DNA of 64,000 bases from Curvibacter sp. PD_MW3 (GTDB taxonomy: Bacteria > Pseudomonadota > Gammaproteobacteria > Burkholderiales > Burkholderiaceae_C). Shown piece after piece: positions 12,678-58,208 of this stretch. The notes below the pieces were generated by a model, which was not told the origin of the DNA, made no database searches, and saw only the letters and a program-made list of their open reading frames with translations. The stretch lies in NCBI GenBank assembly GCA_002633085.1, contig NSIV01000001.1, positions 868,001 through 932,000 of the forward strand, in the 5' to 3' direction. The position numbers were made by a program, and so were the translations under genes. Every line of letters starts with the position of its first letter. The first letter of the stretch is position 1.

Positions 12678-12935
12678 CAACAGCCACTGGCTGGTGGCCA
12701 GCGCCAACACCAGCAGGGCATAAGCAGCCATCTTGCCGTCACGGCTCCACAGCCACAGGCTGACGAGCAGCACGGCGATGCCCACTACAAAATTAATAGC
12801 TGCCTGCACCCACCAGGCAAGCGCTGACGCTTGTTTTTTGATGAGAAAATGAGAAAGCAGAGGCAACAGCAAGGCCAACACCAGCGCTGGCGCCGCAAAG
12901 TTGAACAGGTGCAGCAGGGCATCCAGCAGGCTCAT
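12657..12935 (-). CDS. Small membrane protein of unknown function
   Basis: 92 residues with three hydrophobic segments (about 4-30, 41-62 and 70-86) separated by short charged stretches; no family recognised. It is convergent with ugpQ, overlapping its last 21 bases, and divergent from hemA. About one fifth of the protein (residues 33-51) is encoded by a copy of the dispersed AT-core repeat, in a region that would otherwise join two membrane segments. The even hydrophobic pattern and lack of stops favour a real gene, but expression is unproven. Confidence 0.6.
   Translation of the reverse strand: MSLLDALLHLFNFAAPALVLALLLPLLSHFLIKKQASALAWWVQAAINFVVGIAVLLVSLWLWSRDGKMAAYALLVLALATSQWLLSRGWRK
12784..12840 (+). 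repeat. Dispersed AT-core repeat, copy 1 (inside small membrane protein gene)
   Basis: Begins ACTACAAAATTAATAGCTGC and continues through AAGCGCTGACGCTTG to a T-run. It shares the core CTA-N3/4-AATT-N-ATAGCT with the other copies listed here. It lies wholly within the coding sequence of the minus-strand gene. Confidence 0.65.
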
Positions 12936-12992
12936 GACAGCCGGCCCGGCAGGGCAAAAAGGGGAGCAAAAGCTTGAGGCATCAGCAAATTT

Positions 12993-12998
12993 TATAAT
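12993..12998 (+). promoter_or_regulatory. hemA -10 box (TATAAT) placed for a leaderless transcript
   Basis: A perfect TATAAT ends 6 bases before the hemA ATG, so transcription would start at or within a base or two of the A of ATG. No good -35 at 17 bases (a TTGAGG lies too close, 13 bases away) and no ribosome site are visible. Confidence 0.5.
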
Positions 12999-13004
12999 CG
13001 GACC

Positions 13005-14264
13005 ATGGCAGTCTGGGCATTAGGCATCAATCACACGACCGCGCCGCTCGATCTGCGCGGCCGTTTTGCGTTCGCCCTCGACCAGATCGCCCCCACTTTG
13101 CACGGCCTTCGCGGTGCTTTACCGCGTCCGCCCGAGGCCGCCATCATCTCCACCTGCAACCGCACCGAGATCTATTGTGCCGGCGACCAGCTGGAAATTG
13201 TTCCCACCCTGGACTGGCTGGCCCACAGCGGCGGTGTCTCGCCCGCGCTCCTGCGCTCGCACACCTATGCGCTGGAAGAAGGCCAGGTGGCGCGCCATGC
13301 CTTCCGCGTGGCCAGCGGGCTCGACTCCATGGTGCTGGGCGAACCGCAGATCCTGGGTCAGATGAAGGACGCGGTGCGCGCCGCCGAAGAAGCCGGCGCC
13401 CTGGGCACCACGCTCAACCAGTTGTTCCAGCGCTCCTTTGCCGTGGCCAAGGAAGTGCGCACCTCGACCGAAATCGGCGCCCACTCCATCAGCATGGCGG
13501 CCGCCAGCGTGCGCCTGGCCGGCCAGCTGTTTGAAGATCTGGGCGACATCCGGGTGCTGTTTGTCGGTGCCGGCGAGATGATCGAGCTGGCCGCGACCCA
13601 CTTTGCCGCCCGCAACCCGAAGGCGATGGTGATTGCCAATCGCTCGCTCGACCGCGGCGAAAAACTCGCCTCGCGCTTCGGCGCCGAGGTCATGCGCCTG
13701 GCCGACCTGCCCAGCCGCCTGCACGAATTCGACGCCGTGGTGAGCTGCACCGCCAGCACGCTGCCGCTGATCGGCCTGGGTGCGGTGGAACGGGCACTCA
13801 AACTGCGCCGCCACCGCCCCATGTTCATGGTCGACTTGGCCGTGCCGCGCGACATCGAACCCGAAGTCAAAGCGCTGTCCGACGTCTACCTCTACACCGT
13901 GGACGATCTGGCCGCCGTGGTGCAGACCGCGCAGGCCAACCGCCAGGCCGCAGTGGCCGAGGCCGAAGTCATCATCGACGCCGGCGTGCAGAGTTTCCTG
14001 CACTGGATGGACCAGCGCCGCAGCGTGCCGCTGATCCAGCAGCTCAACGCCCAGGCCGACGAGTGGCGCCAGGCCGAGATCGCGCGCGCGCGCCGGCAAC
14101 TGGCCAAGGGCGAGGACGTGGATGCCGTACTCGAAGCCCTGTCCAAAGGCCTGACGCAAAAGCTGCTGCACGGCGCCTTGGCCGAGTTGCATGCCGGCGA
14201 CGCCGCCGCGCGTGAGCGCGCCAGCGACGCCATCCAGCACTTCTTCCTGCGTAAAGAGAAGTAA
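13005..14264 (+). CDS. hemA: HemA, glutamyl-tRNA reductase
   Basis: 419-residue enzyme that reduces Glu-tRNA to glutamate-1-semialdehyde, first committed step of tetrapyrrole synthesis by the C5 route. Catalytic cysteine C51 in [30 protein letters not shown] near residues 104-123; NADPH-binding domain in the middle (VLFVGAGEM) and a C-terminal dimerisation helix. The start follows a TATAAT by 6 bases with no ribosome site. It leads the hemA-prfA-prmC cluster, but a GC-rich repeat of about 80 bp separates it from prfA. Confidence 0.96.
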
Positions 14265-14266
14265 TG

Positions 14267-14350
14267 GTGCCCCCACGCTCGCTCACTGCGTGTAGCTCGC
14301 TGCCCCCCGAGGGGGCCGAACTTGCTCGGGGCGGCCCTTCGCGGCGTTAG
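14267..14350 (+). repeat. GC-rich intergenic repeat, copy A (downstream of hemA)
   Basis: Begins 3 bases after the hemA stop: GTGCCCCCACGCTCGCTCAC, then TGCGTGTAGCTCGCT, then the hairpin CCCCCCGAGGGGG. The reverse complement of 36240-36335 aligns with it throughout (shared blocks CACTGCGTGT, GCTC, CCCCCC, GGGGG). The rest of the hemA-prfA gap (14351-14455) has no further recognisable element. Possible role as transcript 3' end or terminator. Confidence 0.7.
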
Positions 14351-14455
14351 CGACGCTCTCCCCTGTGCGCCCCGCATGGCGCGCGTTGTCGCTCAGCGGA
14401 CCAGCTCCTTGTCCGGGCGGTCCGATCAGTCGCCCTTCTTTTTTACCGTGTTCTC

Positions 14456-15541
14456 ATGAAACCCTTTCTCCGCCAACAACTCGCACGCTACGCCGACCGT
14501 CTGGCCGAGCTGGAATTCCTGCTGTCGCGCGAAGACATCATGAAGGACATGAGCCAGTTCCTGACGCTCTCGCGCGAGCACACCGAGGTGGCCGCCGTGG
14601 CCAGCCGCTGGGCCCGCTACCAGCAGCGCGAAGCCGACCTGGCCAGCGCCCGCGACATGCTGGCCGACCCGGACATGGCCGAGATGGCCCAGGAGGAAGT
14701 GGACAGCGCCAGCGCCGAGATCGCCCAACTGGAAGCCGAACTGCAGCGCATGCTGCTGCCCAAGGACCCGGACGATGCACGCAATGCCTTCGTGGAAATC
14801 CGTGCCGGCACCGGCGGCGACGAATCGGCCCTGTTTGCCGGCGACCTGCTGCGCATGTACACGCGCTATTGCGAGCGCCGTGGCTGGAAGACCGAGATCA
14901 TCAGCGAGTCACCCAGCGAACTGGGCGGCTACAAGGAAGTGGTGCTACGTGTGGAGGGCGACAACGTTTACGGCGCGCTCAAGTTCGAATCCGGCGGCCA
15001 CCGCGTGCAGCGTGTGCCTGCTACCGAGACGCAGGGCCGCATCCACACCAGCGCCTGCACCGTGGCCGTGCTGCCCGAGCCGGACGAGGCGCAAGCGATC
15101 CAGATCAACCCGGCCGACCTGCGTATCGACACCTATCGTGCCAGCGGCGCCGGCGGCCAGCACATCAACAAGACTGACTCGGCGGTGCGCATCACGCACA
15201 TCCCGACCGGCATCGTGGCCGAGTGCCAGGACGGCCGCAGCCAGCACAGCAACAAGGCCCAGGCGCTGAAGGTGCTCACCGCCCGCATCCAGGAAAAAGA
15301 CCGCTCCGAGCGCGCCGCCAAGGACGCCGCCCAGCGCAAGAGCCTGATCGGCAGCGGCGACCGCAGCGACCGCATCCGGACCTACAACTTCCCGCAAGGC
15401 CGCCTGACCGACCACCGCATCAACCTCACGCTGTACAAGCTGCTCTATGTCATGGAAGGCGAGCTCGACGACGTGGTGGAAGCGCTGCAAGCCTATGAAG
15501 CCGCGCAGCAGTTGGCCGAGCTGGAAGTAGGCGTGACCTGA
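14456..15541 (+). CDS. prfA: PrfA, peptide chain release factor 1
   Basis: 361-residue class I release factor that ends translation at UAA and UAG. The catalytic GGQ is at 233-235 within [19 protein letters not shown]; the glutamine is the target of the methyltransferase encoded by the next gene, prmC. Length is normal. ATG 14456 is the family start. Confidence 0.97.
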
Positions 15542-15545
15542 TTCA

Positions 15546-15608
15546 CAAAGAATCAGCACCAAGCCCTTGCCCCCTATGCGCCAGACGCTCTCTTTTTTAT
15601 AGCAAAAC
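15546..15608 (-). repeat. Dispersed AT-core repeat, copy 2 (prfA-prmC gap)
   Basis: On the minus strand it reads GCTATAAAAAAGAGAGCGTC, TGGCGCATAG, then CAAGGGCTTGGTGCTGATTC. The GCGC and CAAGGGCTTG-TGC blocks match copy 5 in hisC. It fills nearly all of the 70-base gap between prfA and prmC. Confidence 0.55.
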
Positions 15609-15611
15609 CAC

Positions 15612-16430
15612 ATGCAACTCAGCCAAGCCCTCGCCGCTGCCAGCGCCCTCGGCCTACCCCGGCTCGATGCCCAGCTCTTGCTGCTGCATGTCTTGGGCCG
15701 CGCCCCGAATGACCGCGCCTGGCTGCTGGCACATGACAACGACGTCTTGAGCGCCGAGGCCCAGGAGCGCTTCCTGGCACTGGCGCAGCGGCGTGCCGGT
15801 GGCGAGCCGCTCGCCTACCTGACCGGCGTCAAGGAGTTCTACGGCCTGACGCTGCAGGTGGATGCGCGCGTGCTCGACCCGCGCCCCGACACCGAAACGC
15901 TGGTCGAATGGGCGCTGGAATGCCTGACCGGACAACCGACGCCACGCGTGATCGATCTGGGCACCGGCAGCGGCGCCATCGCCCTGGCGCTCAAGCATGC
16001 CCGCCCCGATGCGCAGGTGAGTGCCGTCGATGCCAGTGCCGATGCGCTGGCGGTGGCGCGTGCCAATGCGCAACGTCTTGGACTGGACGTGACATTCCTG
16101 CTGGACAACTGGCTGGCCGGGCTGGAAGGCCGCTTTGACCTGATCGTCTCCAACCCGCCCTACATCGCCGAGGGCGACCCGCACCTCGCGGCACTCGGCC
16201 ATGAGCCGCGCCAGGCGCTGACCGCCGGTCGTGACGGCCTGGATGACATCCGCACCATCGTTGCCCAAGCGCCGGCCCATCTGCAGCCCGGCGGCTGGCT
16301 GCTGCTGGAGCACGGCTGGGACCAGGCAGACGCCGTGCGCGGTTTGCTGACAAGCGCCGGGCTGCACAGCGTGCAATCGCGCGCCGATCTGGCGGGGATT
16401 GAGCGCTGCAGCGGCGCTTGCCGGCCTTGA
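15612..16430 (+). CDS. prmC: PrmC, release factor glutamine methyltransferase
   Basis: 272-residue SAM-dependent enzyme that methylates the GGQ glutamine of RF1 and RF2. N-terminal helical substrate domain, SAM loop DLGTGSGAIALAL (about 115-127) and catalytic NPPY at 181-184. It directly follows prfA, whose product it modifies. No unusual feature. Confidence 0.95.
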   Translation: MQLSQALAAASALGLPRLDAQLLLLHVLGRAPNDRAWLLAHDNDVLSAEAQERFLALAQRRAGGEPLAYLTGVKEFYGLTLQVDARVLDPRPDTETLVEWALECLTGQPTPRVIDLGTGSGAIALALKHARPDAQVSAVDASADALAVARANAQRLGLDVTFLLDNWLAGLEGRFDLIVSNPPYIAEGDPHLAALGHEPRQALTAGRDGLDDIRTIVAQAPAHLQPGGWLLLEHGWDQADAVRGLLTSAGLHSVQSRADLAGIERCSGACRP

Positions 16431-16444
16431 GCCTGTTCGCACGA

Positions 16445-16464
16445 GTCTTGACGTAACTCAAGAC
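16445..16464 (+). other. Small hairpin after prmC
   Basis: Perfect 7-base inverted repeat GTCTTGA / TCAAGAC with a 6-base loop, 15 bases after the prmC stop. No T-run follows, so it is at best a weak terminator or a regulatory hairpin ahead of the GGDEF gene. Confidence 0.35.
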
Positions 16465-16517
16465 ATGGCCGCCGCGCGGCGATATGGTGGTGACCAAATA
16501 ATTTATTCAGGAGCACC

Positions 16518-18260
16518 ATGACGGCCGACGTCTCCATCGAGCGCATTGTCCATCCCGACATTCTGAGCTGTGCCCCGGACACGCCTTTGTCTGTGGCCGC
16601 GCAACGCATGGTGGCAGCACGTTGCAGCTCCATCCTGGTGGAGGACAAGGGCACCATCATCGGCATCTGGACCGAGCACGACGTGCTGGCGCTGGACGCC
16701 TCCGACCCGAAAACCTTCCTGGCGCCGATCTCGGAACACATGACCTCGCCGGTGAAGACCATCCCTATCACGGCCGGCCTGGGTGAAGCAGCCCTGCGTT
16801 TTCGCGAGGAAAAAGTACGCCATTTCCTGGCGGTGGACGATGCCGGCGCCTGCAAGGGCATCGTGACCCAGACCGATATCGTGCTCAACCAAGGCATCGA
16901 ATACTACCTGTCCCTGCGGGAGGTCCATGCGGTGCTGAACCGTCGCGTGCCGCTGGTTGCCAGCCACCTGTCACTGGGTGAAGCCGTCCACACCATGCGC
17001 GACGCCCGTACCGATGCCATCGTCGTGGTCTACCCGGACGGCAGTCACGGCATCCTCACCGAACGTGATGTGATGCGCCTGGTCGGAGCCAGCCAGCCCG
17101 GCGCCAATGTCGGCGAACTGGCAAGCCGGCCGCTCATCACCGTGGCCGTCAATGCCAGCCTGTACCACGCACGCACGGAGTTCACCGAGCGGCACATCCG
17201 CCATCTCGGCGTGACCGGCGCCGACGGCGAGTTGCTGGGCCTGGTCACGTTTTCCGACATCCTGGCCAGCATCGAGCATGACTATGTTCATCAGCTGCGT
17301 GAAACACTGAAGGAACGTGAGCACAGCCTGGCGCTGTCAATGCAGCACCAGCGCCTGGCCACCAAGGTGTTTGAGAGCACGCTGGAAGGCATTATCGTGA
17401 CCAATGCGCAGCGCATCATCGAATCGGTCAACCCGGCCTTCACCCAGATCACCGGCTACAAGGCCCACGAGGTGATCGGCCAGACGCCGGCCATGCTGTC
17501 GTCCGGCCGGCACGACGCCACCTTCTACCAGAAGATGTTCGACGAACTGGCTGCCAACGGCCACTGGCAAGGCGAGATCTGGAACCGGCGACGCAACGGG
17601 GAGGTTTATCCGGAGTGGCTCACCATCAACACCGTCAGGAATGACGAGGGCCAGATCGTCAATTACGTCGGCGTGTTCGCGGACATCACCAAACGCAAGG
17701 CGGCGGAAGAACAGATGCAGTTCCTCGCCTACCACGACGGCCTCACCGGCCTGCCCAACCGCGGCCTGTTCCTCGATCGCCTGCACCATGCGGTATCCCA
17801 TGCCCATCGCAACCACACCATCGTGGCGGTGATGTTCATTGATGTCGACAACTTCAAACCGATCAACGACACCCTGGGGCATCACATCGGCGATCAGCTG
17901 CTGCAAACCGTGGCCCAGCGTCTGGTGGCCAGCGTGCGCGAGGCCGATACCGTGGCGCGGCTGGGCGGCGACGAGTTCACGATCATCCTGGAGTCAATCG
18001 CCGACCCTGGCGATGTGCCACTGGTCGCACAAAAGATCGTCGACACCGTCTCGCAGCCGATGCGGATCGACGGGCACGACATCACCACCACCGTCAGTGT
18101 CGGCCTCAGCCTCTACCCCATTGACAGCGAACACGCGGAAGATCTGATCCGGCACGCCGACATGGCGATGTACATGAGCAAAAAAGGCGGCCGCAACCAC
18201 TACCGGTTTTTCACGGCGGACATGAAGCAACTGGTCGCAGAACGACCAGTTGCCACCTGA
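16518..18260 (+). CDS. CBS(x4)-PAS-GGDEF diguanylate cyclase
   Basis: 580-residue signalling protein without membrane segments. Four CBS motifs form two Bateman modules (about 10-125 and 135-255), a short coil (255-280), a PAS domain (about 283-395) and a GGDEF domain (405-570). The active-site loop is intact, GGDEF at 483-487, and the inhibitory I-site RxxD is present as READ at 474-477 with the correct five-residue spacing. There is no EAL domain, so it should make c-di-GMP with product feedback. CBS modules usually bind adenine nucleotides, so cyclase activity may be tied to energy state. Start ATG 16518 follows AGGAG. Convergent with the next gene; it lies in the block between prmC and grxD. 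Confidence 0.9.
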   Translation: MTADVSIERIVHPDILSCAPDTPLSVAAQRMVAARCSSILVEDKGTIIGIWTEHDVLALDASDPKTFLAPISEHMTSPVKTIPITAGLGEAALRFREEKVRHFLAVDDAGACKGIVTQTDIVLNQGIEYYLSLREVHAVLNRRVPLVASHLSLGEAVHTMRDARTDAIVVVYPDGSHGILTERDVMRLVGASQPGANVGELASRPLITVAVNASLYHARTEFTERHIRHLGVTGADGELLGLVTFSDILASIEHDYVHQLRETLKEREHSLALSMQHQRLATKVFESTLEGIIVTNAQRIIESVNPAFTQITGYKAHEVIGQTPAMLSSGRHDATFYQKMFDELAANGHWQGEIWNRRRNGEVYPEWLTINTVRNDEGQIVNYVGVFADITKRKAAEEQMQFLAYHDGLTGLPNRGLFLDRLHHAVSHAHRNHTIVAVMFIDVDNFKPINDTLGHHIGDQLLQTVAQRLVASVREADTVARLGGDEFTIILESIADPGDVPLVAQKIVDTVSQPMRIDGHDITTTVSVGLSLYPIDSEHAEDLIRHADMAMYMSKKGGRNHYRFFTADMKQLVAERPVAT

Positions 18261-18307
18261 CGGCCAGCTCCCCGCCAGCCATCTCGCGTGAAGCCGTCAA
18301 ACGACCG

Positions 18308-19411
18308 TTATTTCAGCTGGACGTAGCGCCCATCCCTGATCTCGGTGAAGAAGACCTTGCGCTGGGTATCGCCGTTGACGTCAAACACGATCTGTTGCTG
18401 CAGGCCCTGGTAGGGGCCGTTCTTCAGCGCCGAGCTCTTCAGGCTCTCGCCGCGGCCGCGCTTTTTCAGCGCCGTCAACACCACGGTCGCGGCGTCATAA
18501 GCGGAAACCGAGCTGTAGCCTGGATTGCGCTGGAAACGTTTGAAGTACGCCTCGCTGAACTCCTTGAAGCGTTGCGTTTCGTCGTCGCGATTGAAGTTCT
18601 GCACAATCATCAACCCCTGCACCACATCGCCGCCGAGTTCAATCAACTGCTCCGTGGCGGCCCACTCCGAGGCACCAATTGGCAGCTTGGGGGCCTGTTT
18701 GCGGGACTGCTGGGCTAGACGTGCCACGTCGAGCGCGCCGGCAATGTAGAACAGGCTGTCCGGCTTGCTGCGCAGCATCTGGTGCACCACCGCCTCGAAA
18801 TCGACATCCGGACTCGATTCGTAGGGTACTTCGCCAACGACGGAACCGCCACCAGCGCTCACCGCCTCACGGAACTCCTTGAGCCAAGATTCGGTGAAAT
18901 TGCGATTGCGGGTGTCGTAGGCCACGGCGATCTGCCGCTGTCCGCGGCCAAGCATGACCCTGGCATAGTCCCGCGCATTGTCACGCGTGGTCCGGTTGAT
19001 GCGGAACAGGTTGTCATCCTTGCCGTAAAAGGCCATCGACGTGATGGTCGGGCTGATCTGGAAGATGCCAGCTTCGCCGGTGATGGGCACAATCACCTCG
19101 GCCATGGCGCTGGTGAACGGACCGATCACCGCCTCCACCTTGGCGCCCACCAGTTCGGAGGCGGACTTGGCGGCGGTTTCCTTGTTCTGGGCATCATCAC
19201 GCGCAATCAGCTCGACCATGCGACCATTCAGCCCGCCAGCCCGGTTGAATTGCTCTACGGCCAGAATCACGCCATTGAGCCCTGACTGCCCGTTGTCGGA
19301 ATTGCGGTCACTCAAACCACCGATGAACCCGATCTGGACCGGTTGCTGAGGACCACAAGCCGTCAGCAACAGGCTGATGAGGCTGACAAACAGGAAATGA
19401 CGGTTTCTCAT
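18308..19411 (-). CDS. Branched-chain amino-acid-type substrate-binding lipoprotein
   Basis: 367-residue periplasmic-binding protein of the leucine/isoleucine/valine (Peripla_BP_6) type. The N-terminus MRNRHFLFVSLISLLLTACG has a lipobox LTAC with the lipidated cysteine at 19 and glycine at +2, so it should be membrane-anchored. Mature part begins with IGFIGGLSDRNSDNGQSGL, typical of the fold. GGAG lies upstream of ATG 19411; the longer open frame above it runs into the divergent kinase gene and is a shadow. No permease or ATPase genes are nearby; the neighbour, divergent across a 76-base gap, is a histidine kinase, which suggests a sensing rather than a transport role. That link is inference. 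Confidence 0.88.
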   Translation of the reverse strand: MRNRHFLFVSLISLLLTACGPQQPVQIGFIGGLSDRNSDNGQSGLNGVILAVEQFNRAGGLNGRMVELIARDDAQNKETAAKSASELVGAKVEAVIGPFTSAMAEVIVPITGEAGIFQISPTITSMAFYGKDDNLFRINRTTRDNARDYARVMLGRGQRQIAVAYDTRNRNFTESWLKEFREAVSAGGGSVVGEVPYESSPDVDFEAVVHQMLRSKPDSLFYIAGALDVARLAQQSRKQAPKLPIGASEWAATEQLIELGGDVVQGLMIVQNFNRDDETQRFKEFSEAYFKRFQRNPGYSSVSAYDAATVVLTALKKRGRGESLKSSALKNGPYQGLQQQIVFDVNGDTQRKVFFTEIRDGRYVQLK

Positions 19412-19431
19412 GGGGCTCCTTGCAATCCCGG

Positions 19432-19473: not shown

Positions 19474-19487
19474 TGCCAATACCATCT

Positions 19488-26439: not shown

Positions 26440-27576
26440 TCAGCGTGCGAGCACCAGGTTGTCCCGGTGCAGCATCTCCGGCTCGGCCGTGTAACCCAGC
26501 AGTTTTTCGAATTCACCCGAAGGCTTGCGGCACAACAGCCGCGCCTCGGAGCTGGCGTAATTTGCCAGGCCGCGCGCGATCTCGGCACCGCTCTCGTCCC
26601 GCACCGCAATCACATCACCGCGCGAGAACTCGCCTTCCACCGCCGTCATGCCAATCGGCAGCAGGCTTTTGCCTTCCTCCAACAGCTTGGCCGCGGCCCC
26701 GGCATCGACCACCACGGCGCCACGCAGTTGCAGGTGATCGGCCATCCATTGCTTGCGTGCCTGGTTCTTCTGCGTTTGCGCCACCAGCAGGGTCCCAATG
26801 GCCTCGCCGCGGGCCAGCCGTAGCAGGGCATCGGGCTCACGCCCCCAGGCAATTACGGTGGAGGCACCAGAACCGGCCGCACGCTTGGCAGCCAGAATTT
26901 TGGTGATCATGCCGCCACGGCCAAGGCTGGAGCCGGCGCCCCCCGCCATGCGCTCCAACGTCGGATCGCCCGCCTGGGCCTCGTGCACGAACCGCGCCGC
27001 CGGGTCCTTGCGCGGGTCGGCCGTGTACAGGCCTTTCTGGTCGGTCAGGATGATCAGGGCATCGGCTTCGACCAGATTGGCCACCAGGGCCCCCAGCGTG
27101 TCGTTGTCACCGAACTTGATCTCGTCGGTCACCACCGTGTCGTTCTCGTTGATCACCGGCACCACGCCAAGCTTGAGCAGCGTCAGCAAGGTGGAGCGCG
27201 CATTGAGGTAGCGCTCGCGGTCGGCCAGGTCAGCATGGGTCAGCAGCACCTGAGCGCTGCCCAGCCCGTGCTCGCGCAGCCGCGTCTCGTACATCTGCGC
27301 CAGGCCCATCTGGCCCACCGCGGCGGCGGCCTGCAGTTCGTGGATTTCGTGCGGGCGGCTGCTCCAGCCCAGGCGCTTCATGCCTTCGGCAATGGCCCCA
27401 CTGGAGACCATGATGACTTCGCGCCCCTCACGCACCAGCGTCGACAACTGGCGGCACCACTCACCAATGGCCACCTGGTCCAGGCCGCGACCTTCGTTGG
27501 TCACCAGACTGGAGCCGACCTTGACGACAATGCGCCGCGCATCGCGCATGACGCCTGAAGCTGTTTGATGGGTCAT
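26440..27576 (-). CDS. proB: ProB, glutamate 5-kinase
   Basis: 378-residue enzyme of proline synthesis: amino-acid-kinase domain (about 12-260, opening [19 protein letters not shown], with VINENDTV and [10 protein letters not shown]) plus a C-terminal PUA domain (about 285-370). Downstream of obgE, an order common in Burkholderiales. An internal ATG at residue 10 is an alternative start. proA is not in the window. Confidence 0.95.
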
Positions 27577-27600
27577 TTTGGCTTGCCGCCCTTGTCATCC

Positions 27601-27628
27601 GGGCGGGAATAGCTATGAATTAAATAGC
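27601..27628 (-). repeat. Dispersed AT-core repeat, copy 8 (proB-obgE gap)
   Basis: Minus strand GCTATTTAATTCATAGC followed by TATTCCCGCCC. It matches the copy at the hisD start in 21 of 28 positions and shares GCTA-AATTCATAGCT with the hisH copy. It occupies half of the 57-base gap, close after obgE. Confidence 0.6.
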
Positions 27629-27633
27629 GGATT

Positions 27634-28785
<1,152 letters not shown>

Positions 28786-34597: not shown

Positions 34598-34816
34598 ATG
34601 AGCGATCCTGTCAACAACGCCCCCCGTCAGCCCAAGATCGTTGTCTGTCCGACCTGTGGCGGCGACAGCATCTACGCGCCCAGCAACCCCTACCGCCCCT
34701 TCTGCAGCGAGCGCTGCAAGCAGATCGATTTCGGCGCCTGGGCCAGCGAAGACTTCCGCATGCCGGCCGAAGCACCACCGGACGACCAGGAGTTCGGCGA
34801 TCCCAAGCTCCAGTGA
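34598..34816 (+). CDS. yacG: YacG, DNA gyrase inhibitor (zinc protein)
   Basis: 72 residues with the four-cysteine zinc knuckle CPTC (near 17-20) and CSERC (near 36-40), followed by [16 protein letters not shown], all typical of YacG, which in E. coli binds gyrase. Starts 35 bases after zapD; ATG 34598 chosen as the family start. Confidence 0.92.
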
Positions 34817-34838
34817 TTCGAAGCCAAATTCGAATCCA

Positions 34839-34879
34839 GGCCTTTATTTATCTGCGCTAGCTGCTACCGAATGTGTAGC
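34839..34879 (-). repeat. Dispersed AT-core repeat, copy 6 (end of mutT)
   Basis: Minus strand GCTACACATTCGGTAGCAGC, then TAGCGCAGATAAATAAAGGCC. Shares GCTAC, ATTC, TAGC, GCGCAG and AGGCC in order with the hisH copy. It encodes the last 11 residues and the stop codon of the mutT-like gene. Confidence 0.6.
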
Positions 34880-35335
34880 ACCCAGAAACCCTCGTTCTTC
34901 GGCCAACCATTGCAACAGCGGCACCGTCCCGGGTAGTACGGGCACCACCTGCACCGGCAACTGCTGCCATGCGAACGACTGGTTCTCGCGCATCTGCAAT
35001 TCGCCTTGCCAGTCGAACACCTTGCAGAAGTTCAACCGCACCAGGGCATGAGGGTAGTCAACGATTTCCGCCTTCCAAGGGTGCACTGCACCGATGTGAA
35101 TGCCAAGCTCTTCCTCCAGCTCGCGCCGCAAGGCCTGGTCCACCGTTTCACCGGCTTCCAGTTTGCCGCCCGGGAACTCCCAGTAGCCCTCATAGACCTT
35201 ACCCTGGGGGCGCGACGTCAGAAGAAAACTGCCATCGGGTTGGATCAGCACGCCAACAGCGACTTCTGTCACAGGCCGGTCTGCGCCGCCCTCGCGGGGG
35301 CGGTCGGCATCAGCCATCAACGGACGTTGCGTCAT
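34844..35335 (-). CDS. mutT: Nudix hydrolase, MutT-like (8-oxo-dGTP diphosphatase type)
   Basis: 163-residue Nudix protein; box GGKLEAGETVDQALRRELEE near 58-77 and EVAVGVLIQPDGSFLLTSRP before it, as in MutT. It removes oxidised GTP from the nucleotide pool. The ATG at 35335 overlaps the ATPase stop as ATGA; ATG 35317 is an alternative. The C-terminal ATHSVAASADK plus stop comes from the dispersed repeat, so the native end of the protein was probably different. Convergent with yacG, 27 bases apart. Confidence 0.85.
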   Translation of the reverse strand: MTQRPLMADADRPREGGADRPVTEVAVGVLIQPDGSFLLTSRPQGKVYEGYWEFPGGKLEAGETVDQALRRELEEELGIHIGAVHPWKAEIVDYPHALVRLNFCKVFDWQGELQMRENQSFAWQQLPVQVVPVLPGTVPLLQWLAEERGFLGATHSVAASADK

Positions 35336-36207
35336 GCCTGTGCGTGCTTGCCCGCGTAGTCGCGGGCGAACTGGAAGGCCACCCGGCCACTGCGCGAGCC
35401 GCGCTCCAGCGCCCACACCAGGGCCTCGGGTTTGGCGGCTTCGATGGCGGCGGCGTCAACATTGAAAGACGAGAGCCACTGCGCCACGATGGTCAGGTAC
35501 TCGTCCTGGCTGAACGGGTAGAAGCTCACCCACAGGCCAAAGCGCTCGGAGAGGGAGATCTTTTCTTCCACCACCTCACCCGGATGAATTTCGCCATCGT
35601 CACTGGGCGCATAGCTGAGGTTGTCCTTCATGTACTCCGGCAACAGATGACGTCGGTTGCTGGTGACGTAGATCAGCACATTAGGCGTGGTGGCAGCCAC
35701 CGATCCGTCGAGGATGGACTTGAGCGCCTTGTAGCCCGGCTCGCCCTCCTCGAAGCTCAGGTCATCACAGAACACGATGAACTTCTCGGGCCGTTGCGAC
35801 ACCACCTCCACGAGGTCAGGCAGATCGACCATGTCGGCCTTGTCGACCTCGATCAGACGCAGCCCCTGATCGGCATAGGTGTGCAGGCAAGCACGGATCA
35901 GGGATGACTTGCCGGTACCGCGCGCGCCGGTCAGCAGCACGTTATTGGCCGGCAAGCCGCGCACGAACTGCTCGGTGTTACGCTGGATCTTCTCTTTCTG
36001 CTGCTCAATTTCCTTGAGCTGATCCAGGTGCATCGCACCCACATGGCGCACCGGCTCGATGACGCCATGGCCGGAGCTGCGCTTGCGGTAGCGAAAAGCA
36101 ATGGAGGCCGTCCAGTCGGGCTGGGCCAAGGGCTGCGGCAAGATCGATTCGATGCGCGCCATCAGTTGTTCGGCGCGGTCGATCAGACGTTGAAACTGCT
36201 CATTCAT
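35332..36207 (-). CDS. DUF815 family AAA-type ATPase
   Basis: 291-residue P-loop ATPase, DUF815. Walker A GARGTGKSSL near 96-105, Walker B IVFCDDLSFEEGE near 145-157, and sensor VLIYVTSNRRHLLPEY. Function unknown in bacteria. ATG 36207 begins MNEQFQRLIDRAEQ; the frame above it is low complexity. In this group it is usually found next to mutT and argJ, as here, giving mutual operon context but no role. Confidence 0.85.
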   Translation of the reverse strand: MNEQFQRLIDRAEQLMARIESILPQPLAQPDWTASIAFRYRKRSSGHGVIEPVRHVGAMHLDQLKEIEQQKEKIQRNTEQFVRGLPANNVLLTGARGTGKSSLIRACLHTYADQGLRLIEVDKADMVDLPDLVEVVSQRPEKFIVFCDDLSFEEGEPGYKALKSILDGSVAATTPNVLIYVTSNRRHLLPEYMKDNLSYAPSDDGEIHPGEVVEEKISLSERFGLWVSFYPFSQDEYLTIVAQWLSSFNVDAAAIEAAKPEALVWALERGSRSGRVAFQFARDYAGKHAQA

Positions 36208-47263: not shown

Positions 47264-48022
47264 TCAGGCGGGGTTGTCGATCTCGATGAACTCGTGCGCC
47301 AGTCCGAGCTGACCCGCCACGTGCGCGGCCACCGCCGGCGCACCATAACGCTCACTCGCATGGTGGCCGCAGGCGATGTATGCGACGCCGCACTCGCGCG
47401 CATAGTGCGCCTGCGGCTCGGAAATCTCGCCGGTGATGAAGGCGTCAGCGCCGGCGGCAATTGCCGCCTCGAAATAGCCCTGTGCCCCACCCGTACACCA
47501 CGCTATATTTTTGATAGCTTTCTGCGCAGTATTGACAAGGGTCACTGGCCGATTTAATGCCCGTTCCACATGCGCAGCCAGATCACCTGCCGTCGCAAAG
47601 TCGCCACCCTGCGCACGCGCGCCCAGAAAGCCCAGGTCCTGCTCGCCAAAGCGTCCCTCCGACCGCAAGCCCAATTGCAAGCCCAATTGGGCGTTGTTGC
47701 CCAAGTCAGGGTGTGCATCAAGCGGCAGATGGTAGGCAAACAGATTGATGTCGTGCGCCAGCAGCAGGGCCAAACGTTGCTTCATCCAACCGGTCACCCG
47801 ACCATCCTGGCCGCGCCAGAAGAGGCCATGGTGCACAAAGATGGCATCGGCCTGCGCTGTGATGGCCGCCTCGATCAGGGCGCGGCTGGCGGTGACCCCG
47901 GAAACGATTTTGCGGATCTCGGAGCGTCCTTCGACTTGCAAGCCGTTGGGGCCGTAATCGCGAAAACGCTCGGGCTGCAGCAAGGCATCGAAGGCCTGGA
48001 GGAGCTGATGGCGGTCTGTCAT
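47264..48022 (-). CDS. Nif3-like dinuclear metal center protein (YbgI type)
   Basis: 252-residue member of the Nif3/GTP cyclohydrolase-I-type family; metal ligands in FVHHGLFWRG, YHLPLDAHPDLGNN and HHASERYG near the end. Function unsettled. Residues of the segment LVNTAQKAIKNIA, just before the conserved WCTGGAQGYFE, are encoded by a copy of the dispersed repeat. Its ATG overlaps the upstream YkgJ-type stop as ATGA. Confidence 0.9.
   Translation of the reverse strand: MTDRHQLLQAFDALLQPERFRDYGPNGLQVEGRSEIRKIVSGVTASRALIEAAITAQADAIFVHHGLFWRGQDGRVTGWMKQRLALLLAHDINLFAYHLPLDAHPDLGNNAQLGLQLGLRSEGRFGEQDLGFLGARAQGGDFATAGDLAAHVERALNRPVTLVNTAQKAIKNIAWCTGGAQGYFEAAIAAGADAFITGEISEPQAHYARECGVAYIACGHHASERYGAPAVAAHVAGQLGLAHEFIEIDNPA
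47502..47550 (+). repeat. Dispersed AT-core repeat, copy 3 (inside the Nif3 gene)
   Basis: 49 bases from GCTATATTTTTGATAGC through TGCGCAGTATTGAC to GGCC. Ungapped alignment with copy 4 (55076-55124) gives 34 identities of 49. Read on the gene strand it encodes LVNTAQKAIKNIA. Confidence 0.72.
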
Positions 48023-48416: not shown

Positions 48417-48422
48417 TTCCCC

Positions 48423-51609: not shown

Positions 51610-51995
51610 GCAGAAAACTCCATGGGAAGACCTTTGTTCATGTTCACCATGCCGCTGATGATGCGGTAGAGGAACCAGACCGAGATGGCGAGCCAGGCGA
51701 TCCAGCCCGGCACGAAAAAGAAAAACCACAGCGGCGCCGTCAGCACATACAGTGCGGCCGCAATCAGCACGGTGCGGATGCGCCAGCGGAAATGAGAGGC
51801 ATGCCAGGTGCCTTCGGCATCCGGGCGCTTGACCAGGTCGAGCACCAGCGCCACGATCAGCAGCACCGGGCTGATCTGCGCGCCCGGCACCAGGGCACCG
51901 ACGGCCACGATCAGATGCAGCACGTAACTGACCGTCCCCAGCGTGGTGAGGGACTGCAGCCGTTCGGCGTCACTCCGATCCGGGTTCTGGCTCAC
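51606..51995 (-). CDS. DUF4870-like small membrane protein
   Basis: 129 residues with three hydrophobic segments (about 18-40, 42-55, 75-110), like the DUF4870/YtaF-type membrane family; function unknown. The start is GTG at 51995, overlapping the hisE stop as GTGA, and its own stop overlaps hinT. Commonly found in this position between hisE and hinT. Confidence 0.8.
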
Positions 51996-52375
51996 TGCTC
52001 ACCGCCCTCGCGCGCCAGCGCCTTGCGCAGCGCCTTTTCCTCGATGCCGCTGGTGCCCTCGCGGCGCTCCAGTTCGGCGATCACGTCCGCCGGCTTCAGG
52101 CCGTAATGCGCCAGGGCAATCATGGAATGGAACCAGAGATCGGCCACTTCATAGATGATTTTGTTGCGATCGCCGCCATGGTCGGCGTCCTTGGCAGCCA
52201 TCACCACTTCGGTGGCTTCCTCGCCGATCTTCTTCAGGAAGGCATCCGGCCCTTTGTGCAGCAAACGAGCGACATAACTTTTGTCGGGATCACCACCGTT
52301 GGCAGGCAGGCGGCTCTCGACCACAGCCGCCAAGCGGGCCAGGGCATCGGCGGAATTCGTACGCGTATCGGACAT
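51992..52375 (-). CDS. hisE: HisE, phosphoribosyl-ATP pyrophosphatase
   Basis: 127-residue all-helical enzyme for the second histidine step. Signature [12 protein letters not shown] with metal glutamates and [14 protein letters not shown]. Separate from HisI, as in most betaproteobacteria. Five bases after hisI. Confidence 0.95.
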
Positions 52376-52380
52376 GGTCG

Positions 52381-52770
52381 TTATTTGTAGATGGTTTCGG
52401 GGTCTTTCAAGACCGGGTCAACGGCCTGCCAGGCGCCATTTTTGTAAACACTGAAAAAGCAGCTGTGACGCCCGGTGTGACAAGCAATGCCGGGTTCATG
52501 GCCGAGCTGGGTCACCTTGAGCAGTACCACGTCGTTGTCGCAGTCCAGGCGGATCTCATGCACGGTCTGTACGTGCCCGGATTCTTCGCCCTTGAACCAC
52601 AACTTAGCCCTAGAGCGGCTGAAATAGACGGCGCGGCCGAGCTCGGCCGTCTTCTGCAGCGCCTCGCGGTTCATCCAGGCAAACATCAGGACATCGTTGC
52701 TGCCCTGCTCCTGCGCGATCACCGGCACCAAGCCCTGCGCGTCCCATTTCACTTCGTCCAACCAGTTCAT
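52381..52770 (-). CDS. hisI: HisI, phosphoribosyl-AMP cyclohydrolase
   Basis: 129-residue zinc enzyme for the third step. Ligands in [10 protein letters not shown] and [13 protein letters not shown] 52770 opens [20 protein letters not shown]; the upstream frame is a shadow of hisF. Confidence 0.95.
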
Positions 52771-52801
52771 GGCGCTATTGTCGCCCGATTTGGCAGGGGA
52801 A

Positions 52802-53593
52802 TCAGGCGGCGGGTTCGATGCGCACCGGAATGCCGGCCTCAGCCATGCGCGCCTTGGCTTGGGCGATGGTGTACTCGCCGTAGTGGAAGATGCTGGCGGC
52901 GAGCACGGCGTCGGCGCCACCGATCTTGATGCCGTCGACCAGGTGGTCGAGGTTGCCGACGCCACCGGAGGCGATCACCGGCACGCTCACTGCATCGCTG
53001 ACAGCCCGCGTGAGTTCCAGGTCAAAGCCAGACTTGGTGCCATCGCGGTCCATGCTGGTCAGCAGGATCTCGCCGGCGCCATGCTCAGCCATCTGGCGCG
53101 CCCAGGCCACGGCGTCCAAGCCGGTGTTCTTGCGGCCGCCGTGGCTGTAGACGTCCCAGCCTTCGCCGCGTGCCAGCAGGTCGTCACCAAAACGGCGTTT
53201 GGCATCGATCGCCACCACGATGCACTGGGCACCGTATTTGTGCGAGGCGTCGCGGATCACTTGTGGGTTGGCAATCGCTGCCGAGTTGAAGCTGGTCTTG
53301 TCGGCGCCGGCATTGAGCAGACGGCGCACATCTTCGACCGTGCGCACGCCGCCGCCCACCGTCAGCGGAATGAAAACCTTGGAGGCCACCGCCTCGATGA
53401 TGTGCAGGATCAGGTCGCGTCCGTCACTGGTGGCGGTGATGTCGAGGAAGGTCAGTTCGTCGGCACCCTGGTCGTTGTAGCGCGCTGCGATCTCCACAGG
53501 ATCGCCGGCATCACGCAGTTCAACGAAGTTGACGCCCTTCACGACGCGACCACCGGTCACGTCCAAGCACGGGATGATTCTCTTGGCCAGCAC
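52802..53593 (-). CDS. hisF: HisF, imidazole glycerol phosphate synthase cyclase subunit
   Basis: 263-residue TIM barrel, [20 protein letters not shown], with catalytic aspartates (D11 in CLDV and D in [12 protein letters not shown]). Start is GTG at 53593. Works with HisH, which supplies ammonia. 11 bases after hisA. Confidence 0.96.
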
Positions 53594-53604
53594 GCGGTAC
53601 GACC

Positions 53605-54351
53605 TCAGCCCGCGGCAGACAGTTCGTCGGCCCGGATCTGGGCCGCCTGGAAGTCAAGATCACCGGTGTAGACGGCGCGGCCGCAGATCACCCCCTCAAT
53701 GCCCTCGTCTTCCACCGCGCACAGCGCTTCGATGTCGGCCATGTTGCTCAGGCCGCCGGAGGCGATGACGGGAATGGTCAGCGCCTGCGCCAGGCGGACC
53801 GTGGCCTCGATGTTGATGCCCGAGAGCATGCCGTCGCGGCCAATGTCGGTGTAGATGATGGATTCGACGCCGTAGTCCTCGAACTTCTTGCCCAGGTCCA
53901 CCACTTCGTGGCGCGTCAGCTTGCTCCAGCCGTCGGTGGCGACCTTGCCATCCTTGGCATCCAGGCCGACGATGATGTGGCCGCCGAAGGCGGTGCAGGC
54001 GTCCTGCAGAAAGCCCGGGTTCTTGACCGCGGCGGTGCCGATGATGACGTAGCGCAGGCCGGCGTCGAGGTAGCGCTCGATGGTGTCGAGGTCGCGGATG
54101 CCACCGCCGAGCTGCACGTCGATTTCGCTGCCGACTTCCTTCAGGATGCTGCGGATCGCCTGCTCATTCTTGGGCTGCCCGGCAAAGGCGCCGTTCAGGT
54201 CCACCAGGTGCAGGCGGCGTGCACCCTTGTCCACCCAACTGCGCGCCATGAGCGCCGGATTTTCACCAAAGGTGGTGGATTGATCCATGTCGCCCTGCTT
54301 GAGGCGCACGCAATGACCGTCTTTCAAATCGATGGCAGGAATTAAAAGCAT
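53605..54351 (-). CDS. hisA: HisA, ProFAR isomerase
   Basis: 248-residue TIM barrel; [20 protein letters not shown] with catalytic D8, and [13 protein letters not shown] with the second aspartate. 54 bases after hisH. Confidence 0.96.
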
Positions 54352-54405
54352 GGTGCTTCGAAAAAGAATAGGGCTAGGGATTCAGCCGGGACAAAGGGAA
54401 ATGGA

Positions 54406-55119
54406 TCAGGGCTTCCAGTGAAGGAAGTTGCGGTAAAGGGCGAGGCCGTGGGCTGCACTTTTCTCGGGGTGGAATTGGGTCGCAAAAATATTATCGCGCG
54501 CAATCGCCGCCGCGAAGCGGCTACCGTAGTCGGCTTCGCCTGCGCTGTGGCGTGCATCCGACGGTCGGGCGTAGAAACTGTGCACGAAGTAGAAGTAGCT
54601 GCCGTCCGGCACGTCGCCCCAGACCGGGTGACGCCCCTGGCCGTGGTCCATCTGGTAGACCTGATTCCAGCCCATCTGCGGCACCTTGTAGCGACTGCCG
54701 TCAGGCTGGCGCTGGTTCGCCAAGTCGAACTTGACCACCTCGCCGTGGATCAGCCCCAGGCCGGGCGTATCGCCTTCGGCGCTGTGGTCCAGCATCATCT
54801 GCATGCCGACGCAGACGCCGAACAGCGGCTTGTTCGCGGCCGCTTCCAGCACCGCGTCGCGCAGGCCGGAGTCGCGCAGCTCGCGCATGCAGTCGGGCAT
54901 GGCGCCCTGGCCGGGCAGCACCACGCGCTCGGCGGCGCGCACATCGTCGGGCCGGGAGGTGATGAGCACGTGCCAGCCGCTGTCTTGCGCTGCCGCCTGC
55001 ACCGCCTGCGACACCGAGCGCAGGTTGCCCATGCCGTAGTCAACCACCGCCACAGTCTTGGCAGTCGCCTGATTTGCTACTGAATTCATAGCTGATTGCG
55101 CAGAATTGACGAGGCCCAT
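54406..55119 (-). CDS. hisH: HisH, imidazole glycerol phosphate synthase glutaminase subunit
   Basis: 237-residue class I glutamine amidotransferase; [14 protein letters not shown], nucleophile cysteine in GVCVGMQMM, and FHPEKS with the His-Glu of the triad. The N-terminus is about 20 residues longer than usual: [15 protein letters not shown] is encoded by a copy of the dispersed repeat that also supplies the likely start ATG 55119 (AAAAGG precedes it). ATG 55089 and GTG 55135 are alternatives. Confidence 0.92.
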
Positions 55120-55124
55120 AGGCC
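55076..55124 (+). repeat. Dispersed AT-core repeat, copy 4 (start of hisH)
   Basis: 49 bases from GCTACTGAATTCATAGC through TGCGCAGAATTGAC to GGCC. 34 of 49 identities with the Nif3 copy, no gaps. On the hisH strand it reads (M)[14 protein letters not shown], in the same frame as in Nif3. Confidence 0.72.
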
Positions 55125-55138
55125 TTTTTTGCACATGA

Positions 55139-55735
55139 CTAGAGGGAACCTTTGGTCGACGGGATGGTGCCGGCGGCGCGCGGGTCAAGCTCCAGCGCGG
55201 CGCGCAAGGCGCGGGCGAAGGCCTTGAACACGGTCTCGGCCTGGTGGTGGGCGTTCTCGCCGCGCAGGTTGTCGATGTGCAGCGTGACGAAGGCGTGGTT
55301 GACGAAGCCCTGGAAGAACTCGTAGGCCAGCTGGCTGTCGAAGGTGCCGATCATGCCGCTCTTGAACGGCACGTGCATGACCAACCCCGGACGGCCGGAG
55401 AAGTCGACCACCACACGCGACAGCGCCTCGTCCAGCGGCACATAGGCGTGGCCGTAACGGCGGATGCCTTTCTTGTCACCCACCGCTTTGGCCACGGCCT
55501 GGCCCAGGGTGATGCCGACGTCTTCCACCGTGTGGTGGCCGTCAATGTGCAGGTCACCCTTGGCCTGGATGTCGAGATCGATCAGGCCGTGGCGCGCGAT
55601 CTGGTCCAGCATGTGGTCAAAGAAGCCGATGCCGGTGGCCAGGCGCGCCTGGCCGGTGCCGTCGAGGTTGACGCGGACGGTGATCTGGGTCTCCGCGGTG
55701 TTGCGGGAAACTTCGGCAATACGTGGTGTGCTCAT
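55139..55735 (-). CDS. hisB: HisB, imidazoleglycerol-phosphate dehydratase (monofunctional)
   Basis: 198-residue manganese enzyme. Two HHxxED-type metal motifs: [14 protein letters not shown] and [11 protein letters not shown]. Monofunctional, without the phosphatase domain of the enterobacterial fusion. ATG 55735 overlaps the hisC stop as ATGA. Confidence 0.96.
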
Positions 55736-56829
55736 AGTGATTCTTTCAGCGCCGCCAGCATCTGCCGGTTCTCGTCCGGCGTACCGACCGTCAGACGCAG
55801 GCAGTTGACCAGCAGAGGGTGCAGCTTGGAGACATTCTTCACCAGCACCTTGCGCGCCCTCATGCCCTCGAAGGCCTTGGCCGCATCCGGCACGCGCACC
55901 AGGATCATGTTGGCATCGCTGTTCCAGGCCCGCACCTGCGGCCACGCCGACAACGCTTCCAAAATCATAGCACGCTGCGCTTTGATCTCAAGGGCTTGTG
56001 CCGCAAATACATCAGCATGTTCGAGCGCGAACAAGGCGCACTCGCAGTTCAGCACGCTGATGTTGTAGGGCGGCCGCACCTTGTCGATCTCGGCCACCAG
56101 GGCCTGCGGGCCGATCATGTAACCCAGCCGCACGCCGGCCAGGCCGAACTTGGAGAGCGTGCGCATCAACAGCACATGGCCGTGAGCGACCGGGTTGGCG
56201 CGGATGCGCTCCAGCCAGCTGCGTGAGGAGAAAGGCTGGTAGGCCTCGTCCATCACCACCAGACCGCCCTGCTCGCCCACGGCGGCGATGATCTTCGCGA
56301 TCACCGCCTCGTCCCACAGGTTGGCGGTCGGGTTGTTCGGGTAGGCAATGTAGGTGATGGTTGGCTTGTGCTCGCGGATGGCGGCCAGCATGGCGACCTC
56401 GTCGAGCTCGAAGTCGGCGGTCAGCGGCACGCCGTGGAAGGCCAGGCCCTGCAGTTGCGCGCTCATGGCGTACATCACGAAACCGGGCAACGGTGCCAGG
56501 ATGGAAGCGCCCGGCACGTCGCAGGCCAGGGCCAGCAGCGAGATCAACTCATCCGAGCCGTTGCCCAGCATCAGGTCGTAGCCGGCCGGCATGTCGGCGT
56601 AGCGCGCCAGGGCGGCACGCAGGTCGTTGACGCGGCCGTCCGGGTAGCGGTTGAGCGCCAGCCGGCCCAAGCGCTGCCCCAGTTTGGCCTGCAGCGCCGG
56701 CGGCAGGCTGTACGGGTTCTCCATGGCGTCGAGCTTGACCATGCCCACCGAATCCTGGATGGCATAGGCGTGCATGGACTGGATGTCCTGGCGGATCAAA
56801 CGTTGCAGTTTGGGATCGAGTGCTGTCAT
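55732..56829 (-). CDS. hisC: HisC, histidinol-phosphate aminotransferase
   Basis: 365-residue PLP enzyme. VMDEAYQPF and the PLP lysine in [16 protein letters not shown] near 223-238. Residues about 276-291 ([16 protein letters not shown]) lie under a copy of the dispersed repeat, in a helix where length variation is tolerable. Overlaps hisD by four bases. Confidence 0.95.
55957..56002 (+). repeat. Dispersed AT-core repeat, copy 5 (inside hisC)
   Basis: TTCCAAAATCATAGC, then TGCGC and CAAGGGCTTGTGCC. Matches copy 2 over GCGC and CAAGGGCTTG and the shared ATAGC core. More diverged than copies 3 and 4. Confidence 0.5.
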
Positions 56830-58205
56830 TTCTTGGCGTCTTTCAAACGCATCTCGGCCGCGCGCGCGTGCGCCTGCAGCCCCTCACCATGCGCCAGCAC
56901 GGAAGCGATCTGCCCCAGGGTCTGGGCCCCGGCTTCGCTGACCTCGATCAGGCTGCTGCGCTTCTGGAAGTCATACACCCCCAGCGGCGAGGAAAAGCGT
57001 GCCGTGCCGCTGGTGGGCAGCACGTGGTTCGGACCGGCACAGTAGTCGCCCAGCGACTCGCTGGTGTAGGCACCGAGGAAGATGGCGCCGGCGTGTTTCA
57101 GCAGCGGCTCCCACTTGTGCGGCTCGCGGCTCGACACTTCCAGGTGCTCCGGTGCAATGCGGTTGGAGATGGCGCAGGCCTCTTCCATGCTGCGGGTGTG
57201 GATCAGCGCGCCGCGGCCCGTGAGCGACTTGGCGATGATTTCGGCACGCGGCATGGTCGGCAACAGGCGGTCGATCTCGCGCTGCACGGCCTCGATGTAA
57301 GCGGCATCCGGGCACAGCAGGATGCTTTGCGCCAGCTCGTCGTGCTCGGCCTGGCTGAACAGATCCATGGCCACCCAGTCGGCCGGCGTCGTGCCGTCGG
57401 CCAGCACCAGAATCTCGCTCGGGCCGGCAATCATGTCGATGCCGACTGTGCCGAAGACATGCTTCTTGGCGCTGGCGACATAGGCGTTGCCGGGGCCGGT
57501 GATCTTGTCCACCTTGGGCACTGTTTGCGTGCCATACGCCAGGGCCGCTACGGCTTGGGCACCGCCGATGGTGAAGGCGCGCGTGACGCCAGCCACGTAG
57601 GCAGCCGCCAGCACCAGCTCGTTGCGCTCACCCTTGCTTGACGCGGCCTGCCCGCCCGAGCCACCGGTGGCCACGCTGCCACGCACGGGCGTGGGCACGA
57701 CCATGATGATTTCCTGCACCCCCGCCACGTGGGCAGGAATGGCGTTCATCAGCAGGCTCGACGGGTACGCGGCCTTGCCGCCGGGCACATAGATGCCGAC
57801 GCGATCCAGCGGCGTGACCTTCTGGCCCAACAACGTACCGTCTTCATCACGGTAGCTCCAACTCTCGCCCGAGGCCTTTTTCTGTGCTTCATGGTACTTG
57901 CGCACACGGGCTGCAGCCGATTGCAGGGCCTCACGTTGAGCCAGCGGAATGGCGTCGAACGCCGCCTTGAAGTCGGCCTGGGTCAACTCCAGCGCCGCCA
58001 TGTTGGGCGCAGAGAGGCCATCGAAACGGGCGGTGTACTCGAGCACGGCGGCATCGCCGCGCTGGCGCACATCGGCCAGGATCTCGGCCACGCGCTGCTC
58101 AATCGCCGCATCGGTCTCGCCCGACCAGTGCAGACGCGCCTGGAATTTGGCCTCAAAATCGGCCTTGGACGTCGACAGACGGGCGGGAGCAGCTATCAAA
58201 TTCAT
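56826..58205 (-). CDS. hisD: HisD, histidinol dehydrogenase
   Basis: 459-residue zinc enzyme for the last two steps. [34 protein letters not shown] zinc site, and [11 protein letters not shown] Gly/Ser-rich insertion ([17 protein letters not shown], about 171-187) interrupts the usual PTPKGE turn. The first residues [10 protein letters not shown] are encoded by a repeat copy. Overlaps hisC by four bases. Confidence 0.95.
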
Positions 58206-58208
58206 AGT
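58180..58208 (-). repeat. Dispersed AT-core repeat, copy 7 (start of hisD)
   Basis: Minus strand ACTATGAATTTGATAGCTGC followed by TCCCGCCCG. It carries the hisD ATG. 21 of 28 positions match copy 8 in the proB-obgE gap. Confidence 0.55.

Follow-up and report, generated by a model that had tools for sequence, protein, structure and literature searches.

A repeat unit of approximately 66 bp occurs in nine copies in the stretch of 64,000 nucleotides analysed here (the window, G000:C5:868001-932000, where G000 is the 3.37 Mb genome of Curvibacter sp. PD_MW3), lies partly inside genes without having been inserted there, and is conserved position by position between orthologous loci. We propose that it is a genome-wide DNA recognition motif of the Comamonadaceae, most likely a DNA uptake sequence acting in self-recognition during transformation, a reading that relies on analogy with known uptake sequences and on which we are evenly divided. 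Eight of the copies had been listed in a sequence-only reading of the window, as a dispersed family of short AT-core repeats invading genes in the manner of Rickettsia palindromic elements.

The motif and its copies in the window

The unit is ungapped and is composed of GCTAY-NN-AATT-N-ATAGCTG, a second dyad block, AGAGGCC and TTT...AAA, the spacing between these blocks being constant. The consensus of 267 copies is ..tTGCTATt.AATT.ATAGCTGCTtGCGCa.gt...aCg.GcGCTagAGGCc.aTTTgactc.aAAa. Copies with the exact core in other genomes align without gaps (168 sequences of less than 80% mutual identity, 80 columns, no gap columns), and the column composition of 176 copies, in which the search pattern itself dictates the core positions, becomes random beyond about -4 upstream and about +64 downstream. 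An RTAG-like tag is found 5' of the second dyad. The stem arms covary (87 versus 63.7 cells, a score reached in 0 of 500 shuffles of 80 copies, and inflated by related copies), and the arms of block 2 are complementary in four of the five genomes compared, the exception being G000, where only 10% of copies have a standard pair at 24-38. This broken stem rules out an obligatory hairpin, though pairing covaries across the Comamonadaceae.

The window was scanned with a position matrix built from copies of other genomes, the copies of G000 being excluded and a few orthologues of its own loci included. Nine matches exceeded 6 bits, with scores of 26.5 to 64.9, whereas 40 equally long Markov-1 sequences reached 1.1 bits at most. 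They are listed below, with the congeners G313, G594 and G599 mentioned where they were compared:

5174 to 5241, minus strand: 34.7 bits, a ninth copy absent from the earlier list, inside a long gene (3659-7546, minus) with DUF3683, FAD-oxidase and Fe-S domains (Pfam)
12780 to 12847, plus strand: 39.8 bits, inside a small hydrophobic gene (12657-12935, minus) with no Pfam match; also in G313
15540 to 15607, minus strand: 37.7 bits, intergenic; also in G313
27565 to 27632, minus strand: 48.9 bits, in the gap before an Obg-type GTPase gene (27634-28704, minus), which lies upstream on the minus strand
34816 to 34883, minus strand: 41.8 bits, over the 3' end of a NUDIX gene (34844-35416, minus); 27 bp shorter in G594 and G599
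47498 to 47565, plus strand: 45.3 bits, inside a NIF3 gene (47264-48022, minus); same length in the element-free G594 and G599
55072 to 55139, plus strand: 64.9 bits, the best copy of the window, between the upstream gene and a HisH-type gene
55951 to 56018, plus strand: 26.5 bits, the weakest copy, inside a HisC-type aminotransferase gene (55732-56829, minus)
58145 to 58212, minus strand: 42.2 bits, over the start of the histidinol dehydrogenase gene (56826-58205, minus), with the start codon within the palindrome

All eight places listed earlier are thus true copies. The literal core pattern proposed for them, in contrast, is exact only at 27612 and 55076; at the six others it is inexact, 12784 starting with A and not G and the rest being degenerate in the core but carrying the downstream blocks. 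The placements given earlier hold for the small hydrophobic gene, the NIF3 and HisC-type genes, the histidinol dehydrogenase start, the NUDIX 3' end and the two intergenic copies, but the copy assigned to the HisH-type gene lies just upstream of or at the gene start, where its palindrome supplies, on the minus strand, the in-frame ATG.

Presence or absence at orthologous sites varies among congeners, as the earlier reading had required of a repeat family. The copy at the HisH-type locus is present in G000, G313, G595 and G608, and the spacer is 54 bp shorter in G594 and G599. At the Obg-type locus, the spacer of G594 and G599 is unrelated and 76 bp longer. At the histidinol dehydrogenase gene, these two element-free genomes show a difference of 9 bp before the start codon and of 0 in the coding part. 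The HisC-type copy keeps an equal length across the genus and scores 10.8-12.6 bits even in G599 and G594. Two further observations concern these loci. In G598, G607 and G520 (L205, L206, L207), an unrelated GC-rich spacer of similar length replaces the motif before the HisH-type gene, and the G313 orthologue of the 5174-5241 copy has an adjoining 90-bp insertion, in frame with the long FAD-oxidase-type gene (L228).

Placement in genes and constraint on the copies

The scan was extended to 412 kb (G000:C5:700001-1112000, window included), where 40 copies exceed 15 bits; the controls, two Markov sequences and the region reversed, have none above 5 bits. In this region, which is 89% coding, 14 copies fall in genes (4 on the same strand, 10 on the opposite one), 13 at gene edges and 13 between genes, as positioned by our own codon-usage gene caller and not a standard tool. 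Copy 1052590, called as gene-edge, was counted as in-gene since its frame continues upstream with conserved protein sequence, which brings the in-gene copies to 15. The host genes include those of methionyl- and isoleucyl-tRNA synthetase, a MurG-type glycosyltransferase, diaminopimelate epimerase, an RNB-domain ribonuclease and NIF3.

Ten of these 15 copies have an element-free orthologue in G594 or G599, the five others having none in the stretches compared. The net difference within the motif is 0 residues in five cases and 1, 2, 4, 5 and 5 in the rest. The comparison was widened for two genes. In ileS, 19 of 31 genomes have the motif above 15 bits, placed on the same codons (between LKFVFITS and KCERCWHY) and with no indel among the 19; the 12 genomes without it (-29.9 to -59.0 bits) include ten of equal length. 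In nif3, 15 of 33 genomes have it above 15 bits, again at matching codons and mostly at equal length, with a few extra residues in G329 and G597. In both genes, the motif overlies codons that are present in the element-free proteins too. The absence of a length difference of about 66 bp rules out insertion for the ten tested genes and for ileS. Inside genes, therefore, we find no inserted segment facing an empty orthologous site of the kind that defines a miniature inverted-repeat transposable element (MITE) or a Rickettsia palindromic element, and the gene invasion suggested by the sequence-only reading does not hold for the ten in-gene copies that could be compared. As a caution, dispersed in-gene repeats should not be taken as insertions without an orthologue test.

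In the same ten genes, amino acid identity is 108/193 (56%) within the motif versus 613/766 (80%) in the 40 flanking residues on each side, so that the motif segments sit in permissive parts of the proteins. In L030, L088 and joined stretches of G599, the motif or its core was also seen over signal-peptide-like sequence (MNAIKFIAACA..., MKAKMIAIKNIAAVLG...).

The copies themselves are constrained. Among the 21 G000 copies located in G313, 20 remain above 15 bits there. In 51 orthologue pairs from four genomes, no mismatch occurs at T2, A3, A8, T9, A14 and G15 (0/51 at each), and mismatches reach 49% at positions of low information; information and mismatch are negatively correlated (Spearman -0.47, the pairs sharing genomes and so not being independent). 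At 19 independent G000-G313 loci, changes number 11/304 at the 16 core positions versus 176/985 elsewhere, and 38/437 at positions above 1 bit versus 99/587 at those below 0.5 bit, a contrast reached in 0 of 2000 permutations. The same tendency is seen for the in-gene part alone (5/138 versus 22/186 changes between G000 and G313, p 0.007), and in-gene third codon positions, with 3/38 versus 195/1054 in the flanks (p 0.13), are suggestive but too few. This position-wise conservation reflects selection or biased recombination and not decay. Neutral decay of a dead mobile repeat is ruled out, as the consensus positions are kept between orthologues while neighbouring positions change freely.

Abundance, spread and lineage-specific versions

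In the whole genome of G000, GCTAYNNAATTNATAGCTG has 36 matches with at most one mismatch, corresponding to 34 distinct sites since two palindromes were counted on both strands, versus 0 for the reversed pattern. The motif is in excess over control, and strongly over-represented as are the DNA uptake sequences (DUS) of Neisseriaceae and the uptake signal sequences (USS) of Pasteurellaceae. Its density in G000 is about 1 copy per 10 kb, in both orientations, and about 330 copies are expected genome-wide by linear extrapolation from the 412 kb.

Within the genus, a profile model applied to 26 genomes gave at least 150 matches each in G000, G313, G595 and G608, 41 in G597, 19 in G600, 17 in G610 and at most 12 in the 19 others. 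The syntenic stretches of G594 (445 kb) and G599 (420 kb), 865 kb in total, hold no copy above 15 bits and one weak match above 10 bits each, in the hisC-type gene. A different version of the motif in these two congeners was sought and rejected, no sign of it appearing in k-mers or in TAGCTGCC contexts, although k-mer counts are uninformative even for G000.

The occurrence of the family in other Comamonadaceae, suspected from the window, was supported by wider searches. Of 300 genomes of the order, 3 have the exact core, and these three belong to the Comamonadaceae. Within the family, 65 of 299 genomes have it (38 of 141 genera), and no control match is among the matches listed. These counts are lower bounds: G093 has 0 exact-core matches, yet at least 42 profile matches (42 of 42 candidates). 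With the profile, one genome of the order sample outside the Comamonadaceae has one match. A 26-base pattern was found at 120 or more loci in GTDB contigs; the 80 matches listed belong to Polaromonas, Acidovorax, Rhodoferax, Curvibacter, Paracidovorax, Brachymonas or unresolved bacteria, with no recognised genus from outside the family among them. The stretches of G093, G553, G171 and G393 were picked around known matches, so their densities are not unbiased.

Block 2 differs between lineages, and its version is common to the copies of one genome. In the five genomes compared, it is GCGCA/AAGGGC in G000, GCCCA/TGGGC in G393, GGCCGG/CCGGC in G171, AGCGCTT/AAGCGCT in G093 and GCGCAT or AGGCAT/CTAGCGCT in G553, i.e., the motif has dialects that follow lineage, as DUS do. 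The in-gene copies of nif3 and ileS carry block 2 versions that resemble those of their own genome, as judged by eye and unscored.

A putative uptake signal, other explanations and known systems

The motif changes in concert at many unlinked sites, in genes without insertion and under constraint, and for this reason we propose that one trans-acting factor reads it. The specificity of this reader would shift between genera. Copies would arise and persist via point substitution plus recombination, and motif-bearing DNA would be preferentially taken up and recombined, a molecular drive as proposed for DUS and USS; lineages dropping the preference would then lose their copies through ordinary substitution. 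To our knowledge, uptake sequences are known only from Neisseriaceae and Pasteurellaceae. The motif could be the first self-recognition sequence of this type outside these families, occupying hundreds of sites, of which some have stayed on the same codons in many genera while the dialect changed in place, and it might explain species-specific transformation in Acidovorax and Verminephrobacter, a proposal that we hold a little more tentatively than the uptake reading itself.

An uptake signal is favoured because of the precedent of DUS and USS, and because competence and sequence specificity are reported in the Comamonadaceae. Natural competence is described for V. eiseniae, A. temperans and A. 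facilis. When the DNA came from a different Acidovorax species, no transformation was detected, and the effect of competing foreign DNA suggested that uptake is sequence-specific; the portion of that study at hand names no uptake sequence for Acidovorax or Verminephrobacter (PMC4212676). The motif also occurs on a contig of A. temperans (L111).

Several data weigh against this reading. A unit of 66 bp is longer, and a density of 1 per 10 kb sparser, than those of known DUS and USS. All 28 genomes tested, element-free ones included, have the DNA channel gene ComEC, which hence does not discriminate. In the 15 gene-edge or intergenic copies with a G594 orthologue, a comparison that leaves out the one reclassified copy, the interval is shorter there in 13 (9 to 145 bp) and longer in 2; these differences fit either insertion or simply a longer spacer. 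The whole motif scores above 25 bits in 12 of 65 IMG/VR stretches with the exact core, and another copy has partial matches in two plasmid records of the family (BLAST, E up to 1). Conserved DNA holds 21 of 23 copies, with 96% expected, a comparison that is uninformative for depletion in accessory DNA. Finally, a motif copy (L134) is found in A. delafieldii too, a species that gave no detected transformation in the reported experiments (PMC4212676). Concerning mobile DNA, the IMG/VR stretches with the motif (L412, L397, L414 and others) may be provirus or host pieces, one phage record has a partial match to another copy (BLAST, E up to 1), and BLAST of one window copy against plasmids gave no match at 1e-5, in a search without sensitivity control.

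Among the other explanations, the one that survives best, although we find it rather unlikely, is that the motif is bound by a chromosome-organising or nucleoid protein, an architectural factor particular to the lineage, whose sites would be kept by selection on chromosome structure. Three successive blocks with two dyads resemble a multi-protein binding site, and the mean spacing of about 10 kb is slightly even in G000 (coefficient of variation 0.73, p 0.02), but no such evenness is found in G393 (0.94, p 0.30). In this complete genome, the 150 best matches show no regional concentration (10 to 19 per tenth), which suits an architectural site, but they have only a weak orientation bias (71 on the plus strand and 79 on the minus; p 0.068 for the best two-way split), which does not. 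Also against such a site are the concerted dialect shifts at many places, hard to obtain via selection acting on each, and the congeners that manage without the motif. A strict chromosome polarity, like that of KOPS or Chi, was rejected, the halves of G393 having only a weak bias (26 plus/44 minus versus 45 plus/35 minus, Fisher p 0.022; best split as above).

An element of the repetitive extragenic palindromic type (REP, or its composite form REPIN) or a MITE, mobilised in trans, for example by a single transposase of the REP-associated tyrosine transposase (RAYT) type, appears improbable. All 28 family genomes tested have a Y1_Tnp gene, 25 of them exactly one, and it is equally present in the element-free genomes, so that, like ComEC, it does not track the motif. 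REP elements are recognised by a palindrome of 20-50 nt preceded by GTAG; here the second dyad has covarying arms and an RTAG-like tag before it, but the stem is broken in G000. The shorter spacers of the element-free congener at most gene-edge and intergenic copies would suit a mobilised element, which is already disfavoured inside genes, where no insertion is found; the orthologous copies, moreover, are under constraint and not in decay. In addition, 9 of 10 scanned Y1_Tnp loci have no copy above -5 bits. The RAYT-like Y1_Tnp gene of G000 lies outside the window (G000:C5:940875-941201, minus; L446), and such a gene shares a contig with the his region in several members of the genus.

An RNA-level element (terminator, processing or stability hairpin) is very improbable: the blocks capable of forming hairpins are followed by a T run, and a motif fragment in Acidovorax ebreus lies in 44 convergent versus 4 divergent contexts (as counted by Tong et al., PMC5217627), but the copies take both orientations relative to the gene, occur in the middle of essential-type genes and have a broken stem in G000, and the window has no Rfam match at gathering thresholds except two tRNAs.

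Searches of the open-licence literature listed no account of the complete motif from Comamonadaceae. Table 7 of Tong, Schliekelman and Mrazek (2017, PMC5217627) gives two spaced motif pairs: GCTTAT(N)5AAGCG, with 114 copies in A. ebreus, and ATAGCT(N)22CAAAAG, with 125 copies in Polaromonas naphthalenivorans. In our reading of these patterns, the former would fit motif positions 24-29/35-39 and the latter 12-17/40-45, i.e., both could be parts of the motif; as presented in that table, they are two separate motifs of unknown function, unjoined and without conservation or insertion test. The beta-proteobacterial repeat element (BRE) is likewise reported from Betaproteobacteria including Comamonadaceae, with some copies in genes, but is given, in the description available, as about 90 bp long, 69% GC in Bordetella and tandem (PMC3110155), whereas the present motif has about 66 bp and an AT-rich core; as described, the two differ in length and GC content.

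Compared with REP and REPIN systems, the motif shares the RTAG-like tag before a dyad, the single RAYT-like gene in most genomes and the many copies, but differs in being a fixed unit that is not inserted in genes, is conserved at orthologous sites and has its stem broken in G000. Rickettsia palindromic elements are in-frame inserted segments. Like them, the motif has copies in genes that are not broken by it; unlike them, it brings no insertion to the genes that bear it. Whatever its function, a motif of this length that overlays essential-type genes without insertion and is constrained at hundreds of sites is unusual.

If the motif is an uptake signal, the Comamonadaceae would be a third lineage with sequence-marked natural transformation, the species-specific DNA exchange reported in this family would become directly testable, and many dialect changes made in place would be available for studying the evolution of a genome-wide recognition code. 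DUS and USS are roughly 10-30 bp long. The motif is, by comparison, a multi-block unit and about tenfold sparser in G000, and its role in uptake would be assigned by analogy. It resembles them in its many dispersed copies, in both orientations, in and between genes, in its permissive segments, in its extra conservation and in its phylogenetic dialects, in agreement with the published accounts in which DUS exceed the sequence around them in conservation, occupy permissive regions of the core genome (PMC2397512) and form dialects (PMC3630211).

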